Positions 52,031 through 64,000 of a stretch of DNA of 64,000 nt are shown here, piece by piece. The notes beneath the pieces are model-generated. The model was not told the DNA's origin, made no database searches, and worked only from the letters and a program-made list of their open reading frames with translations. Numbering within the stretch: position 1 is the stretch's first letter; each line of letters opens with the position of its first letter. Both the position numbers and the translations under genes were made by a program. The DNA is from Streptococcus suis (lineage in GTDB: Bacteria > Bacillota > Bacilli > Lactobacillales > Streptococcaceae), in assembly GCA_002831545.1 (NCBI GenBank), contig CP025095.1, positions 1-64,000 of the forward strand, given 5' to 3'.

Positions 52031-53279
<1,249 letters not shown>

Positions 53280-53350
53280 TAACAAGGTATCTATCTAATC
53301 ACTCCCTCCTCCTGTATACTGTTATAAAAAACAAAACTGGAGGATTTATT

Positions 53351-53536
53351 ATGTCACACCCCATCGTCCCATTGACTATTCCCCTATCTCGCCGCTTTGA
53401 GAAGAAAGGCAGAAATGATATTCTGATGAAAATTCGTCTCGGAAAAGTGGAAGTCACATTCTTTCACTCTATCAACCAAAAAATATTAGAAACAATCTTG
53501 GATAAGGTACTGCACTATGACCATCCGACTCAGTGA
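53351..53536 (+). CDS. IS66 family accessory protein, TnpA-like
   Basis: A 60-residue basic protein (IVPLTIPLSRRFEKKGRNDI, ending LDKVLHYDHPTQ) is encoded just inside the left end of the element, with AACTGGAGGA upstream as ribosome binding site. Its position, size and 20-bp overlap with tnpB match the first accessory gene of IS66-type elements in streptococci. It is shorter than proteobacterial TnpA and its biochemical role is unknown. Confidence 0.7.
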   Translation: MSHPIVPLTIPLSRRFEKKGRNDILMKIRLGKVEVTFFHSINQKILETILDKVLHYDHPTQ

Positions 53537-53867
53537 TTTAGGTCAAGTCTACTTGGTTTGCGGTAAAACGGACATGCGTCAAGGGATTGATTCTCTCGCC
53601 TACCTTGTCAAAAGTCAATTCAATCTGGATCCCTTTTCAGGTCAGGTCTATCTCTTCTGCGGAGGTCGAAAAGACCGATTCAAAGCTCTTTACTGGGACG
53701 GACAAGGATTTTGGTTATTGTATAAACGTTTTGAGAATGGAAAATTGACCTGGCCAAACAATGAAGAAGAGGTCAAGGCTCTAACTTCCGAGCAGGTGGA
53801 CTGGCTCATGAAAGGATTTTCTATCAATCCAAAAATAAATCTTTCAAAAAGTCGTGATTTCTATTGA
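53517..53867 (+). CDS. tnpB: IS66 family accessory protein TnpB
   Basis: The 116-residue protein has the IS66 Orf2 signature: VYLVCGKTDMRQGIDSLAYL, then FCGGRKDRFKALYWDGQGFW, and LYKRFENGKLTWP. It is needed with TnpA and TnpC for IS66 transposition, but its mechanism is unresolved. It overlaps the upstream tnpA-like gene. A hairpin (GATTTC/GAAATC near its stop) separates it from tnpC. Confidence 0.92.
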   Translation: MTIRLSDLGQVYLVCGKTDMRQGIDSLAYLVKSQFNLDPFSGQVYLFCGGRKDRFKALYWDGQGFWLLYKRFENGKLTWPNNEEEVKALTSEQVDWLMKGFSINPKINLSKSRDFY

Positions 53868-59960: not shown

Positions 59961-60000
59961 AAATTAAAATTCTTTGGATTTTCCAGAGAATTTTTTTATT
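59961..60000 (+). terminator. Terminator after purB
   Basis: AAAATTCT..GGA (from 59966) pairs with TCC..AGAATTTT (59981-59993) and enters a T run. It ends the purB transcript ahead of the repeat region. Confidence 0.65.
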
Positions 60001-60069
60001 TATTTGCGAATAAATAGGTGAAGGGGAAAACAAGCTCCTTCCGAAGACAATCATTCGTGGATAAAAATA

Positions 60070-60173
60070 ATACTCTTCGAAAATCGAAATCAGACGTTGT
60101 TGACTTGATTTGATGAACTTCAGTTCTATCTGCATCTGCGTCGCCTAGTCTGATTTTGATTTTCATTGAGTAT
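60070..60173. repeat. RUP-like 104-bp inverted-repeat element
   Basis: ATACTCTTCGAAAATCGAAA (60070) mirrors the right end TTTTGATTTTCATTGAGTAT (to 60173), with TA at both outer edges as for Tc1/IS630-type targets. The end sequences closely resemble a widespread pneumococcal intergenic repeat (RUP type). I assign this from memory of its ends and cannot verify it. It sits in the first gap of the 85-bp repeat array. Confidence 0.65.
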
Positions 60174-60250
60174 AACTTATTTTTTACAAAAGTTTACGAA
60201 TAGATAAGTGTAGGGGAAAACAAGCTCACAACTTATTCAAAAAAAGTATC

Positions 60251-60350
60251 GTCATTTAGTTTTTCTTTTATTACTTCGTTAACTTGCCTTGCCTAACTCT
60301 AGTTATGCCTGCGGCTCGTTGCCTAGTACTAAAAGTAAACTAAAAGACTA
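60251..60350. repeat. 100-bp inverted-repeat element (short form of the 51118 element)
   Basis: The left end GTCATTTAGTTTTTCTTTTA and right end TACTAAAAGTAAACTAAAAG with ACTA (to 60350) are inverted repeats identical or nearly so to those of the 430-bp element at 51118-51547. The interior AACTTGCCTTGCC and AGTTATGCCTGCGGC is also shared with that element and with 5763-5861. It occupies the second gap of the 85-bp array. Confidence 0.7.
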
Positions 60351-60502
60351 TAAAAAATTTTTTTAAAAAATGCAAACGATTTGCGAATAAGTAAGTGAGA
60401 GGGAAAACACCCCCTCTAGGAGATACACACTTGAAAAAAATAAATCATTTTCAAAATGATTTACGAATAAACAAGTGTAGGAAAAATGAAAGGAGAAGAA
60501 GG

Positions 60503-60595
60503 ATGAAAAAGAAGTTCAAGATTGTAAACAAACGTACAACGATTGACCTCGGGATTATTAAGTATAGCTACCGTCGTGGTCGCCATACTTTGTAA
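60503..60595 (+). CDS. Cationic peptide A1 (30 aa)
   Basis: ATG 60503 with AGAAGG upstream encodes MKKKFKIVNKRTTIDLG followed by IIKYSYRRGRHTL, then TAA. Estimated net charge is about +9 (6 Lys, 4 Arg, 1 Asp). There is no signal peptide, no double-glycine leader and no membrane helix. Alternating polar and hydrophobic residues in the middle suggest a beta-strand or hairpin. It is the first of five tandem genes and belongs to type A with the ending RRGRHTL. Function unproven; a leaderless antimicrobial peptide is the leading guess. Confidence 0.75.
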   Translation: MKKKFKIVNKRTTIDLGIIKYSYRRGRHTL

Positions 60596-60648
60596 ACAGG
60601 GTAATAAATTATATTTTTTGTAAATTTTTAAAGTAAAAGGAGTAAAAA

Positions 60649-60741
60649 ATGAAAAAAACATTCAAAAAATCAAGTAAACGTGCAACAATTCGTCTAGGAA
60701 ACCTTACTATCAGCTACCGTTACCCACGCTTTACTTTGTAA
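60649..60741 (+). CDS. Cationic peptide B1 (30 aa)
   Basis: ATG 60649 is preceded by AAAAGGAGTAAAAA. The product is MKKTFKKSSKRATIRLGNLT and ISYRYPRFTL, with about +9 net charge (5 Lys, 4 Arg, no acidic residue). It is related to type A by the frame KRxTIxLGxxxxxYRxxRxTL but differs in the middle and end. It is 53 bp after A1 and 15 bp before A2. No cysteines are present, so neither disulfides nor lanthionines are expected. Confidence 0.75.
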   Translation: MKKTFKKSSKRATIRLGNLTISYRYPRFTL

Positions 60742-60756
60742 GAGGAGGAGATAAAA

Positions 60757-60846
60757 ATGGGAAAATTCTTTAAGAAAAATAAACGTATCACTATTGATCT
60801 AGGTATTATTAAATATACTTATCGTCGCGGTCGTCACACTTTGTAA
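60757..60846 (+). CDS. Cationic peptide A2 (29 aa)
   Basis: ATG 60757 has a strong AGAGGAGGAG ribosome binding site. The product is MGKFFKKNKRITIDLG and IIKYTYRRGRHTL, one residue shorter than A1 because the basic N-terminus is rearranged. The last 18 residues differ from A1 at only one position (T for S). It lies 15 bp after B1, so B and A are probably made in a fixed ratio from one mRNA. Confidence 0.77.
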   Translation: MGKFFKKNKRITIDLGIIKYTYRRGRHTL

Positions 60847-60898
60847 ACAGAGTAATAAATTATATTTTTGTAAATTTTTAAAGTAAAAGGAGTAAAAA

Positions 60899-60991
60899 AT
60901 GAAAAAAACATTCAAAAAATCAAGCAAACGTGCAACAATTCGTCTAGGAAACCTTACTATCAGCTACCGTTACCCACGCTTTACTTTGTAA
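60899..60991 (+). CDS. Cationic peptide B2 (30 aa), identical to B1
   Basis: This is the second copy of the type B gene, exactly 250 bp downstream of B1, with one synonymous change (AGT to AGC). The product starts MKKTFKKSSKRATIRLGNLT and ends RYPRFTL, the same as B1. The upstream AAAGGAGTAAAAA is also copied. Protein identity with a silent difference implies that the peptide sequence is under selection or that the duplication is recent. Confidence 0.77.
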   Translation: MKKTFKKSSKRATIRLGNLTISYRYPRFTL

Positions 60992-61006
60992 GAGGAGGAG
61001 ATAAAA

Positions 61007-61096
61007 ATGGGAAAATTCTTTAAGAAAAATCAGCGCATCACTATTGATCTAGGTATTATTAAATATACTTATCGTCGCGGTCGTCACACTTTGTAA
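61007..61096 (+). CDS. Cationic peptide A3 (29 aa)
   Basis: ATG 61007, 250 bp after A2 with the same AGAGGAGGAG ribosome binding site. It encodes MGKFFKKNQRITIDLG and IIKYTYRRGRHTL, differing from A2 by one residue (Gln for Lys at position 9). It is the last peptide gene; six bases after its stop a strong hairpin region begins that separates the peptide genes from the transporter genes. Confidence 0.77.
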   Translation: MGKFFKKNQRITIDLGIIKYTYRRGRHTL

Positions 61097-61101
61097 AGAA
61101 A

Positions 61102-61180
61102 CTTATTGATAGCTAATATTGTTTAGCTATCAATAAGATGGGTATTATGGGTTAATGCCTATCTTATTGATAAAAAGGAG
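61102..61180 (+). promoter_or_regulatory. Alternative-hairpin leader between peptide genes and transporter operon
   Basis: Segment 1 (61102-61116, CTTATTGATAGCTAA) pairs perfectly with segment 2 (61123-61137). The 3' part of segment 2 (61129-61139, ATCAATAAGAT) also pairs perfectly with segment 3 (61161-61171, ATCTTATTGAT), which touches the AAGGAG ribosome binding site at 61175-61180. The two foldings exclude each other. This can modulate mRNA processing, partial termination or translation of the permease gene, and probably helps make more peptide than transporter. The function is inferred. Confidence 0.6.
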
Positions 61181-61185
61181 ATAAA

Positions 61186-61914
61186 ATGAATATGTTTCGG
61201 TCAATTTTTAAGTCGGTGATACATCGAAGGGATGTTGCTTTGTTCTATGCTTTTGCTGGTTTACCAATCTTAGTTCCTATACTGTCCAAATTTTTGGTAG
61301 GCGTAAAGGCTGAATATACGGATAATTTTTTAGATTTTCTAGGAGCAGCATTGTCAACACAGGATGGGATAGTGTTACCAACATTGTTGTTATCCTTGAT
61401 AATTTCCGCAGTTTTTAGGGATGAGATTGATAGTGGCATTCTATTTTTATACAAAGATTTGAATAGAACCCGACTTTTTAATGCAAAAATCATTAGTTTA
61501 GTGGTGATGTATGCCTCTTATGTCCTTCTAACAGTGCTGACAAGTGCAATTGCCTATTTTGGTTTCTTGAATACTTTTGGAAAGGTAATATCGAATGATT
61601 GGAGTAATGTACAGTCCACTTTGCTATCTATTTTTGCAACAATCTCCATCAATATTATCGGTGTTTTATTGGTTGCCATGGTTTCTATTAAAGCCAAATC
61701 CTTACAGGCAGTTCTAGCAGGAGTTTTTTGGTCGCTATTTACAACAACTGCACCATTTCTGATTGGAGTTCGTTATGTCGTACCAAATGGCTATGCTCAG
61801 ATGAGTTTTAATCAGCCACTGCTTGCATGGTCCTTGGTAGTAGCTATAACGATATTTTATATTGTTGCTACCTATCTTAAAGGTCGTTCGAACTTTGAAA
61901 AGTTGGAATTTTAG
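61186..61914 (+). CDS. ABC-2 type transporter permease
   Basis: The 242-residue protein has about six membrane helices: AGLPILVPILSKFLVGV, VLPTLLLSLIISAVF, IISLVVMYASYVLLTVLTSA, LLSIFATISINIIGVLLVAM, a further segment around AVLAGVFWSLFTTTAPFLIG, and LLAWSLVVAITIFYIVATYL. The cytoplasmic loop RDEIDSGILFLYKDLNRTRLF is typical of ABC-2 permeases of bacteriocin and antibiotic exporters. It follows the peptide genes by 90 bp of structured RNA. An ATPase candidate is 1 kb downstream in the same operon. Confidence 0.8.
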   Translation: MNMFRSIFKSVIHRRDVALFYAFAGLPILVPILSKFLVGVKAEYTDNFLDFLGAALSTQDGIVLPTLLLSLIISAVFRDEIDSGILFLYKDLNRTRLFNAKIISLVVMYASYVLLTVLTSAIAYFGFLNTFGKVISNDWSNVQSTLLSIFATISINIIGVLLVAMVSIKAKSLQAVLAGVFWSLFTTTAPFLIGVRYVVPNGYAQMSFNQPLLAWSLVVAITIFYIVATYLKGRSNFEKLEF

Positions 61915-61923
61915 AGGTATGTT

Positions 61924-62502
61924 ATGGTAATTCGTTATATGAGACCAGTTGCCTTATCCATTGCTTTGATTATTTTAGCATCAATTTCTTATCTTCTGGC
62001 AACATCTTTGGTTTTATTTAGCTCCAGTCAATTTTTACAGCTAGCCTACCTATTTTCTATTATGGTTGGAATGCCAGTAGGGTTTATTCTACTTCCATCT
62101 ATGTTAACCAAACGTTACCAGCTTTGTCAGGAGCTATCGGAAGTGAAGTTCAGTTGGAAAAGCTTCGTTTTGCTGGCTATTGCAATTTTCTTGGTCAATT
62201 TCTGGTTTATTCAGAGTGATGAGTATGTGAATCAATTTATTATTGCGACTTGTGAAGAATTCTTGTTCCGTTATCTTATCTATCGTATTCTAAAAAGTGA
62301 ATACCCTACTTGGCTATCTATGTTGGTCGCTTCTCTCTTGTTTGGAGTTCTGCTACACATGAATTATCCCTTGCTGGATAATCTATTAATCCGAACTCCA
62401 CTAGGTTTATTGTTCTCTGTGTTAGCTACTCGTTTTGGTTTGCAGTATGCTATCGGAGGACATTGGTTATACAATCTGTTAGTTTCGAGATTTCCATTTT
62501 AA
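61924..62502 (+). CDS. CPBP-family intramembrane metalloprotease (CAAX/Abi)
   Basis: A 192-residue polytopic protein with the CPBP motifs: EEFLFRYLIYRIL (EExxxR, near residue 111), LLFGVLLHMNYP with a His, and YAIGGHWLYNLLV with the last His. Such proteins are common next to bacteriocin genes, where some are shown to confer self-immunity; others process prenylated or peptide substrates. It is 9 bp after the permease stop and runs up to the next small membrane gene, so it is in the same operon. Confidence 0.85.
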   Translation: MVIRYMRPVALSIALIILASISYLLATSLVLFSSSQFLQLAYLFSIMVGMPVGFILLPSMLTKRYQLCQELSEVKFSWKSFVLLAIAIFLVNFWFIQSDEYVNQFIIATCEEFLFRYLIYRILKSEYPTWLSMLVASLLFGVLLHMNYPLLDNLLIRTPLGLLFSVLATRFGLQYAIGGHWLYNLLVSRFPF

Positions 62503-62513
62503 TTGTGAGGGTC

Positions 62514-62945
62514 ATGATGATATTTATTCTATTATTGAGTCTATTTTATATTTGTTTGACAGTTGCTAGTTCGCAACTATTGCTAAGTCTCTCTGTTCCT
62601 GTTTTATTGTTGTTGACTTATTTGCTACCGCCCATTGTCAATTCAATCTGTATGGGATTACAAAAGACTGAGTCTTGGAAAGCATGGTCAGCGGGCATTT
62701 TTCCAACAATGTCAATGATATTTTATGCCGCTTTTGCCTACCTTACGAGTAGCAATGGTCAGTGGGCTCAGTTTGCTCAACTGCATACAGTTTCAGATGA
62801 TGTCATGAGTGTCGAGCTGGCAGGAGAATTGTTAGTTCCATCACAAATGCTATTTGTTGCCGTACTATATTATGGTGCAGCTATTGCCACTTATTTTATT
62901 CAGCAGGCAGGTCGTAAGAAAGAAAAAGGAGTTACTTATGCTTAA
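62514..62945 (+). CDS. Small polytopic membrane protein, unknown
   Basis: From ATG 62514 (MMIFILLLSLFYICLTVASS) the product is 143 residues with about four hydrophobic stretches, including LLLSLSVPVLLLLTYLLPPI, the AGIFPTMSMIFYAAFAYL region and PSQMLFVAVLYYGAAIATYF, and a basic tail. GAGGG lies before the start. An upstream in-frame start at 62463 would overlap the protease gene. It overlaps the ATPase gene by 8 bp. It may be an accessory permease subunit or immunity component; I do not recognise it. Confidence 0.65.
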   Translation: MMIFILLLSLFYICLTVASSQLLLSLSVPVLLLLTYLLPPIVNSICMGLQKTESWKAWSAGIFPTMSMIFYAAFAYLTSSNGQWAQFAQLHTVSDDVMSVELAGELLVPSQMLFVAVLYYGAAIATYFIQQAGRKKEKGVTYA

Positions 62946-63810
62946 AATCAATCATTTATCAAAACAGTTTGCAGGAAACGAATTTTACTCACTAAAAGAT
63001 GTGAGTTTGGAGATCAATAAGGGCGAGATAGTTGGTCTGATTGGGAAAAACGGAGCTGGAAAATCCACACTCATGAAACTAATGGCTAAGTCCCTAAAAC
63101 CAAGTTCGGGAACCATTACATATAAGGGTACGGATATTTTTAGTCAGGATAATTTGTTAGCAGACTTTGGAATTATGATCGATCCAGTCTTCTATCCAGA
63201 AATGACTGTTATGGACAACCTCAAGTTTTATTTGGACTTGCATGGGAAAAAAGACCTCTATCCAAATATTGAGAAGACTTTGAAATTGGTAGAATTATGG
63301 GAAGCTCGCAATCGGAAACCCAAGGGATTCTCGTTTGGTATGAAACAACGGACTGCTTTGGCGATTGCCTTGGTTGCGGAGCCAGATTTCCTTATCTTAG
63401 ATGAGCCTTTTGTGGGCTTGGACCCGATTGGTGTTCAGAAATTGATTGATATCTTGAAGCAGTGGTCTAGTGAGCGACAAATTTCCATGCTGATTTCGAG
63501 TCACCAACTAGGTGAGTTGGAGGCCTTGTGCAGCCGCTATGTCTATATCGAATCGGGAGAATTGGCAGAGGCTTTTGAAGGCAAATCTCATCCAAGTGTG
63601 CTCGTGCAGTTGGACACAACTAAAAACCTAGATTCTGTAGAGGCTTTGCTCAATGACCATGTGGTGCTAGAGGGGGAAGTGCTAGAGATTTCCACTGCCA
63701 CGCCTACAAGTGAGCTAAATCAGATTTTTGGTGTGTTGGCTCGTCAAGAATTGATTGTGAAATTAGAAGTGAAAGAGAATCACTTGAAAGAAATCTTTAC
63801 GAAAGGGTAG
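62938..63810 (+). CDS. ABC transporter ATP-binding protein
   Basis: From ATG 62938 with AAAGGAG upstream the protein is 290 residues. It has Walker A GLIGKNGAGKSTLMKL near 40, a signature FSFGMKQRTALAIALVAEP, Walker B DFLILDEPFVGLDP near 160, and the H-loop MLISSHQLGELEALC. The signature LSGGQ is replaced by FSFGM, which is usual for NatA/CcmA-type exporters and drug or peptide extrusion systems. It energises the permeases encoded on both sides. A C-terminal extension of about 80 residues follows. Confidence 0.92.
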   Translation: MLKINHLSKQFAGNEFYSLKDVSLEINKGEIVGLIGKNGAGKSTLMKLMAKSLKPSSGTITYKGTDIFSQDNLLADFGIMIDPVFYPEMTVMDNLKFYLDLHGKKDLYPNIEKTLKLVELWEARNRKPKGFSFGMKQRTALAIALVAEPDFLILDEPFVGLDPIGVQKLIDILKQWSSERQISMLISSHQLGELEALCSRYVYIESGELAEAFEGKSHPSVLVQLDTTKNLDSVEALLNDHVVLEGEVLEISTATPTSELNQIFGVLARQELIVKLEVKENHLKEIFTKG

Positions 63811-63815
63811 TGAGT

Positions 63816-64000
63816 ATGAAACAGATTTTTCCAGCTGTCTTTAGAACGATTTGGAAGCGAAAGGAGACGCAGATTTATCTCCTGTTCACTTTGTTTCCTT
63901 TTATCTATCTAGTCACTTCATTTATTGAAGGGTCGAATTTTATGCAGATTCATGCTGGTGAGGGCTATAAAGTCAGCCTTGTTGCCTTTACGAATATGAT
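63816..64000 (+). CDS. Membrane protein (ABC permease), partial at window end
   Basis: ATG 63816 opens a frame that continues past the window. The visible 61 residues contain the first membrane helix IYLLFTLFPFIYLVTSF after a basic start (AVFRTIWKRKETQ), then an extracytoplasmic-looking stretch with IHAGEGYKVSLVAFTNM. Its position 5 bp after the ATPase stop suggests a second permease of the same transporter. The remainder of the gene and anything downstream cannot be seen. Confidence 0.65.
   Translation, partial: MKQIFPAVFRTIWKRKETQIYLLFTLFPFIYLVTSFIEGSNFMQIHAGEGYKVSLVAFTNM

Follow-up and report, generated by a model that had tools for sequence, protein, structure and literature searches.

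A peptide array and its membrane-protein operon in Streptococcus suis: a candidate multi-peptide leaderless bacteriocin-like system

Organization of the locus

The window, as the term is used here, is the whole 64,000-nucleotide stretch that was analysed (positions 1 to 64,000 of contig CP025095.1); the chromosome to which it belongs is 2.72 Mb long and in one contig. Downstream of purB and ahead of a membrane-protein operon, the window carries an array of five small ORFs on the plus strand, namely peptide 1 (60503..60595; type A, 30 aa, net charge +9), peptide 2 (60649..60741; type B, 30 aa, +9), peptide 3 (60757..60846; type A, 29 aa, +8), peptide 4 (60899..60991; type B, 30 aa, +9) and peptide 5 (61007..61096; type A, 29 aa, +7), where net charge is K+R-D-E. 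By reading, a Shine-Dalgarno-like sequence (AGGAG, GGAG or AAGG) lies a few bases 5' of each, and peptide 1 has an alternative in-frame GTG start upstream at 60395 that would give 66 aa. An earlier note on this DNA had described five consecutive small ORFs with ribosome-binding sites of their own, arranged A-B-A-B-A and encoding peptides with no Cys, leader or signal peptide; all of this was confirmed, the last point by reading. The charges given there (near +9 or +10) were a little too high for peptides that are indeed strongly basic, and the shared motif KRxTIxLGxxxxxYRxxRxTL was found in peptides 1 to 4, peptide 5 having QR for KR. Because peptides 2 and 4 are identical and peptides 3 and 5 differ by one residue, the five peptides are not five independent observations; the repeat spacing of 250 bp, together with these near-identical pairs, points to recent duplication.

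A terminator-like hairpin (59966-59994) stands just after purB, and between purB and peptide 1 (60003-60480) there are four imperfect repeats of about 30 bp with the core RCGAATARNNARGTG, followed by AGGGGAAAACA or a similar sequence. The RCGAATARNNARGTG core also occurs elsewhere in the chromosome at 0-1 mismatch. Further upstream, at 52341-53867, a purD-like frame with only GARS_N and GARS_A is followed by an IS66 Orf2-like gene, and purD looks interrupted by insertion.

The operon begins with permease A (61186..61914, plus strand; 242 aa), which is ABC-2-like by similarity; it has no Pfam or NCBIfam match itself, resembles permease B, and has a relative that matches PF12730 below cut-off. 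It is followed, all on the plus strand, by a CPBP (Rce1-like) intramembrane protease (61924..62502; 192 aa; PF02517, 42.2 bits, cut-off 22.4), an MsaC-family membrane protein (62514..62945; 143 aa; NF038270, 128.3 bits, cut-off 45), an ABC ATPase (62938..63810; 290 aa; PF00005) and permease B (63810..64000, running on to chromosome position 64589; 259 aa). Outside the window lie a half ABC exporter (64592-66304; 570 aa), a MerR-type gene (66625-67899; 424 aa) and then ruvB. From permease A to the exporter, each of the six genes shares 89-100% identity with its counterpart in locus L039. The CPBP protein has EEFLFR (EExxxR) and HWLYN (HxxxN), and FxxxH was not found in it at the canonical spacing, the sequence there reading FGVLLH; the catalytic motifs were present in 25 of 26 CPBP proteins or pieces. 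For the ATPase, the best NCBIfam match was TIGR03740 (164.7 bits, cut-off 309.75), with PmtC NF047568 also among the better ones (133.9 bits, cut-off 375), and both scores are far below the cut-offs. The ABC-2 permease, CPBP protease and ATPase that were said to follow the array directly are thus all present; the MsaC gene (62514) and an RNA element (61102-61175), treated below, had gone unlisted.

Extent and sequence of the peptide family

A profile of the five peptides, run on 284 Streptococcus genomes, matched 160 of them at E<=1, mostly noise by score, and 15, including the window genome, at E<=0.005, the threshold used for the linkage count. The 14 other genomes at this threshold all have the same operon downstream of the array, running from permease A through CPBP, MsaC and the ATPase to permease B, with MsaC verified by NF038270 in each, so that the linkage of peptide genes to the transporter, which the earlier note had proposed to check across streptococcal genomes, held throughout. 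The ABC exporter is also present in 13 of the 14 and is absent beside the S. sinensis array. The next-ranked match (genome G150, locus L051; E 0.008) has no such operon alongside.

Starting from MsaC, the NF038270 search gave 28 loci in 27 of the 284 genomes, and family peptides were found in 24 of these loci, on the same strand and within 7 kb of the ATPase; among the 24, L082 has its peptide several kb upstream and L088 has a peptide with no start codon at the usual place. Three of the four loci without a peptide (L083, L084 and L092) have damaged or missing genes, and the fourth, L085 of S. devriesei, looks whole, with the operon present and no recognisable peptide. MsaC was found in 10 of 395 genomes sampled across the order, three of the 10 being outside the genus Streptococcus. 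An ATPase scan of named genomes returned 50 loci, 42 with at least 63% identity, and added peptide relatives in Bombilactobacillus and an uncultured Lachnospiraceae genome; a tblastn search of plasmids added one on a Staphylococcus simulans plasmid. This census describes the genomes searched here, and the family is under-sampled beyond them.

The family consists of basic peptides of 26-31 residues, with 1-8 copies per locus, frequently arranged in tandem. Among 35 aligned members, three positions never vary (Met1, an Arg and a Gly), and a single Tyr position reaches 90% or more. By eye there are two branches: the window type, KR(N)T...GRHSI/TL, and a W type ending in ..Y(K/R)GKxFxW. The 35 peptides matched no NCBIfam family and only four Pfam families, one peptide each, none of them convincing; the best, DUF4236 (PF14020; E 0.0077), is a weak lead. 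Neither the peptide profile nor the MsaC profile had a sequence match in the PDB. In the open-access literature, no published account was found for the peptide letters RRGRHTL or TYTRGRHS, and nothing was recognisable as this peptide system by title or start of abstract. AlphaFold2, run with 35 rows, predicted three short strands (12-15, 20-24 and 27-29) at a mean pLDDT of 68 and a pTM of 0.26, and a fold search with this model gave no match at E<=0.001. At most, this model hints at a fold of the hairpin kind; the beta-prone character ascribed to the peptides earlier is weakly supported by these strands, at such low confidence values.

Selection on the peptide frames

Substitutions were counted on minimum spanning trees for 58 equal-length related copies in 11 groups, singletons and some copies being excluded. 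There were 98.8 synonymous and 58.2 nonsynonymous changes, for an expected synonymous fraction of 0.21; the binomial P of about 1e-29 is optimistic, as transition bias and gene conversion were not modelled. Synonymous change was favoured at P<0.05 in eight of the 11 groups. Window type B (3 synonymous, 4 nonsynonymous) and the first W-type peptide (1 and 4) did not reach this level, the latter showing no purifying selection, and a third group had no changes. The earlier note had proposed to compare synonymous with nonsynonymous change, and by this comparison the frames are kept as protein. We conclude that the short basic peptides evolve as proteins, under purifying selection. This rules out chance ORFs and, together with conservation in other species, identifies the five peptide ORFs as real genes.

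An RNA element between the array and the transporter genes

Between peptide 5 and permease A lies a structured RNA element on the plus strand (61102..61175). Its three arms pair into two hairpins, which overlap in part of arm 2. The segment 61094-61190 folds with -30.8 kcal/mol (z -6.6), and four relatives have z values of -5.9 to -7.6. In 12 distinct rows, one of them with N for arm 1, 92.9% of the cells of hairpin I are paired and 5 of its 9 pairs changed on both sides; for hairpin II the values are 97.8% and 9 of 15. The arms were picked by eye, which favours the share of paired cells, the both-side changes being less open to such bias. These both-side counts were reached in none of 500 shuffles for either hairpin, and slid versions fall off; the number of further pair types of hairpin I was not above that of the shuffles (341/500). 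Column 16 of arm 2 changes with both of its partners in two lineages.

An RNA model built from 13 sequences (R1) had matches in 19 of 284 genomes at E<=0.01 with strict filters, 18 at this locus and one elsewhere. Of the 18, 13 were themselves used to build the model and five are closely related to these, so this result speaks for confinement to the locus and is not an independent discovery. The off-locus match (genome G194; E 0.001) lies between unrelated genes, one of them ftsX-like, and was taken as an ordinary hairpin; another weak match (31.7 bits) at L148 is far from the peptide there. Among 32 loci searched again, the element was absent from eight loci of the permease A-ATPase-permease B kind (trio loci) and from the vicinity of the peptides in eight W-type or more distant loci; it was also absent from L080, whose peptide is of the KRxT (window) type. 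A known RNA family was rejected for 61102-61175, the only two Rfam matches (E 0.5 and 0.76) being far below gathering scores. No intrinsic terminator was found there on the plus strand, and on the minus strand one terminator-like hairpin covers hairpin I. In short, comparison of these rows establishes an undescribed, covarying RNA element at the array-transporter junction, and its position suggests a role in peptide versus transporter dosage.

Gene association and peptide-less loci

The locus survey gave 75 ATPase loci, of which 58 were non-redundant after removal of 17 duplicates (L151, which has no ATPase, was set aside). CPBP and/or MsaC are present in all 28 peptide-bearing loci of this set. 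Of the 30 peptide-less ones, 25 have neither by profile, L092 among them holding a broken MsaC. Peptides in the loci examined therefore occur only with CPBP and/or MsaC beside the ATPase operon. The exporter tally of the same survey was left unused, because an unrelated ABC gene beside S. sinensis was counted as well.

Among 16 trio loci whose gene order was compared, 11 had a response-regulator-sized and a kinase-sized gene just upstream; the peptide-less loci behind such a pair are L095, L098, L099, L102, L104, L107, L110, L113, L114, L127 and L134. LytTR was found in the pair of L110, on which alone Pfam was run. A profile built from the MsaC loci found no short ORF of the peptide family before permease A in these trio loci, although, given its origin, it may have missed a peptide there. 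The ATPase occurs at E<=1e-70 in 52 of 284 Streptococcus genomes, 27 with MsaC, 25 without and none with both kinds; since chance predicts about 2.4 genomes with both, the exclusion does not reach significance on its own (8 candidates were scored per genome). The ATPase tree (52 rows) requires eight changes of peptide state, at least four of which are forced by well-supported branches. Our reading is that there are two kinds of locus, one that may be a producer cassette with immunity and one that may serve protection alone, the peptide-less trio loci being candidates for stand-alone immunity.

Exchange of peptide types at the purB-ruvB site

The purB-ruvB site of the S. suis group holds window-type operons in some members and W-type operons in others. 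Compared with the window, the W-type operon L087 has 32% identity in permease A, 37% in CPBP, 24% in MsaC, 65% in the ATPase and 28% in permease B, values that are the lowest or about the lowest of the loci compared. Its exporter, at 67%, is above the 44-61% of ten other comparable loci of other types, and its MerR gene is 70% identical; no value could be had for L080, L088 and L089, whose genes are split. What varies with the peptide type is the set of genes that would be expected to recognise the peptide, and the exporter and regulator stay with the site. Of the arguments for a toxin-immunity relation, this joint exchange of peptide type with permeases, CPBP and MsaC is the strongest.

The exchange also bears on the proposal that the peptides are secreted to act on targets other than competitors (as surfactants, in biofilms or on a host). 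Staphylococcal phenol-soluble modulins are short, tandem, leaderless peptides, amphipathic helices by structure, and the Pmt ATPase and permease export them and protect the cell. The array resembles them in that tandem short peptides adjoin an ATPase and two permeases, and PmtC is among the better NCBIfam models for the ATPase, which nevertheless stays below its cut-off (133.9 against 375 bits). The family peptides, however, are strongly basic and strand-prone, and a toxin-immunity pair agrees better with the swapping of peptide and permease types at a single site and with the trio loci that have no peptide, which makes a modulin-like function unlikely. That the peptides are intracellular micropeptides that bind nucleic acid or regulate, merely sharing an operon with the transporter, would agree with their richness in Lys and Arg and with the PHROG dsDNA-binding match of one member (E 0.053, at chance level for 35 members). 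Against this, the peptides go with membrane-protein genes in 28 of 28 loci and are exchanged together with permeases, and we regard it as very improbable.

Regulation

In front of the arrays of S. cristatus and S. sinensis there is a ComR-type gene (PF18710), and the array of genome G035 has one beside it. Dyads of the GACAT-ATGTC type stand upstream of the arrays of S. cristatus (two, GACAT-TGTC) and G035 (several). A double Trp is a hallmark of the pheromone XIP, and in S. cristatus an ORF MFKFFNLLGFIGGWWG, XIP-like by eye in having it, lies with the two dyads between the ComR-type gene and the array. In S. salivarius, ComR-type regulators drive bacteriocin genes (PMC6703854); the ComR-type gene and dyads at the S. 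cristatus and G035 arrays are alike in this respect, and the arrangement was not seen at the array of the window. There, neither a ComR-type gene nor dyads nor an XIP-like ORF were found nearby by reading and by the dyad search, and ComR control of this array was rejected as it has no dyad near it. A ComR-type system probably switches on the locus in some relatives; for the window array, the MerR-type gene is a candidate regulator.

These regulators raise the alternative that the array itself encodes a pheromone, exported, trimmed by CPBP and sensed. Quorum-type regulators near some relatives and a CPBP gene that is always or nearly always there would suit such a role. By reading, however, a distinct XIP-like ORF with a double Trp already adjoins the ComR-type gene of S. 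cristatus; up to eight near-identical copies and charges of +6 to +10 are unusual for a pheromone, and no sensor is common to the loci examined. A signalling function is thus quite unlikely.

Two further small ORFs occur before the array site in genomes G248 and G139 and in the metagenome genome G219 (L044:7303-7491, L045:7116-7297 and L083:4245-4410), one with TGNKNFPRDGCK and the other with ADD near the N-terminus; they are possibly signals or extra components, and by reading the window array has no such pair. Downstream of ruvB in the window's chromosome (70024-73950; L006), four similar ComR-like genes stand in a row, the first recognised by Pfam PF18710 and the other three by sequence.

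Relation to known systems and proposed mechanism

Aureocin A70 and garvicin KS are multi-peptide leaderless bacteriocins, in which several small cationic leaderless peptides are encoded in a row with ABC genes alongside. The array has the same layout: its peptides are short and cationic (26-31 aa in the family, +7 to +9 in the window), by reading have neither leader nor signal, and are linked to ABC genes of putative export or immunity function in 14 of 14 genomes. It differs in that no shared sequence family was found (0 NCBIfam families for 35 peptides, no convincing Pfam match) and in the additional CPBP, MsaC and permease trio. The leaderless peptides of the aureocin A53/A70 kind are helical with a saposin-like fold, whereas strands are predicted here, at the low confidence of the AlphaFold2 model (pLDDT 68, pTM 0.26). 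The combination of a single ATPase and a pair of permeases of about 250 aa recalls LanFEG lantibiotic immunity, and TIGR03740, the best NCBIfam match of the ATPase, describes a lantibiotic protection ABC ATPase; however, its score is below the cut-off (164.7 against 309.75 bits), and the operon has no lanthipeptide precursor or modifying enzyme. CPBP/Abi proteins occur in bacteriocin loci, and here too a CPBP gene with conserved EExxxR accompanies small cationic peptides, its putative role being immunity or processing.

The explanation that we consider probable is a multi-peptide leaderless bacteriocin-like system with peptide-specific immunity. The peptides would be made nearly mature, be exported by the half ABC exporter, the permease trio or both, and have the envelope of related bacteria as their target. 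In its LanFEG-like layout, the trio of permease A, ATPase and permease B would together with CPBP and MsaC protect the producer by recognising its own peptide type; alternatively, CPBP may trim the peptide. The RNA element may set the ratio of peptide to transporter expression, by protection of a 3' end, by processing or by exchange between the overlapping hairpins, and in some relatives a ComR-type system may switch the locus on.

The leaderless bacteriocin-like interpretation of the earlier note is in part supported, by the exchange of types with permeases, CPBP and MsaC, by the ComR-type genes beside three relatives and by the peptide-less trio loci. In the strict sense of active as translated, leaderless is a candidate property, since a CPBP protease with EExxxR is usually present and may trim the peptides. 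The points against this interpretation are the lack of an exporter at the S. sinensis array and of a ComR dyad at that of the window, one peptide group without purifying selection, the S. devriesei operon L085 without a peptide, L080 without the RNA element and the L088 peptide without a start codon at the usual place. The observation was right, and its interpretation is likely in kind; the system is broader and more clearly delimited than a single window could reveal. More tentatively, it is possible that these loci form a new class of strand-forming multi-peptide bacteriocins in streptococci, Bombilactobacillus, a Staphylococcus plasmid and an uncultured Lachnospiraceae genome, with peptide-specific immunity through trio, CPBP and MsaC; in the streptococcal loci of the KRxT type, a dedicated RNA with two competing hairpins would set the expression of the peptides apart from that of immunity.

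If the bacteriocin-like reading is right, a peptide family with no Pfam or NCBIfam model has a part in how streptococci of pigs, humans and other animals compete. Trio loci that stand alone would then give protection without production, and the RNA element would offer a testable example of dosage control, of peptide against immunity, inside one operon. The family peptides are short enough for synthesis and testing.

The Msa family and plasmid relatives

The window protein is a clear member of the NCBIfam "Msa family membrane protein" (NF038270), a model that names one gene and on which no paper was found in the open-access literature. S. aureus msaC has been reported as a non-coding RNA (PMC4229872). 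On the S. simulans plasmid, a gene named Msa family membrane protein lies beside CPBP and the ATPase. This mobilizable plasmid (NZ_CP094708.1; L148:4824) encodes the family peptide MLDALLKLLSLDQVNLGIVKYQYKGKKHNW, which has no gene in the (incomplete) annotation table and is followed by CPBP, the Msa family protein, the ATPase and a permease-like gene. On the S. epidermidis SEI plasmid NZ_CP009047.1 (L147:7779), a short basic ORF MFKSLFSSSKPGCVSIKPFGVGVSYCYKSKNKRHRT, with no match to the peptide profile, precedes a CPBP gene and lies near an ATPase and a permease related to those of the window.
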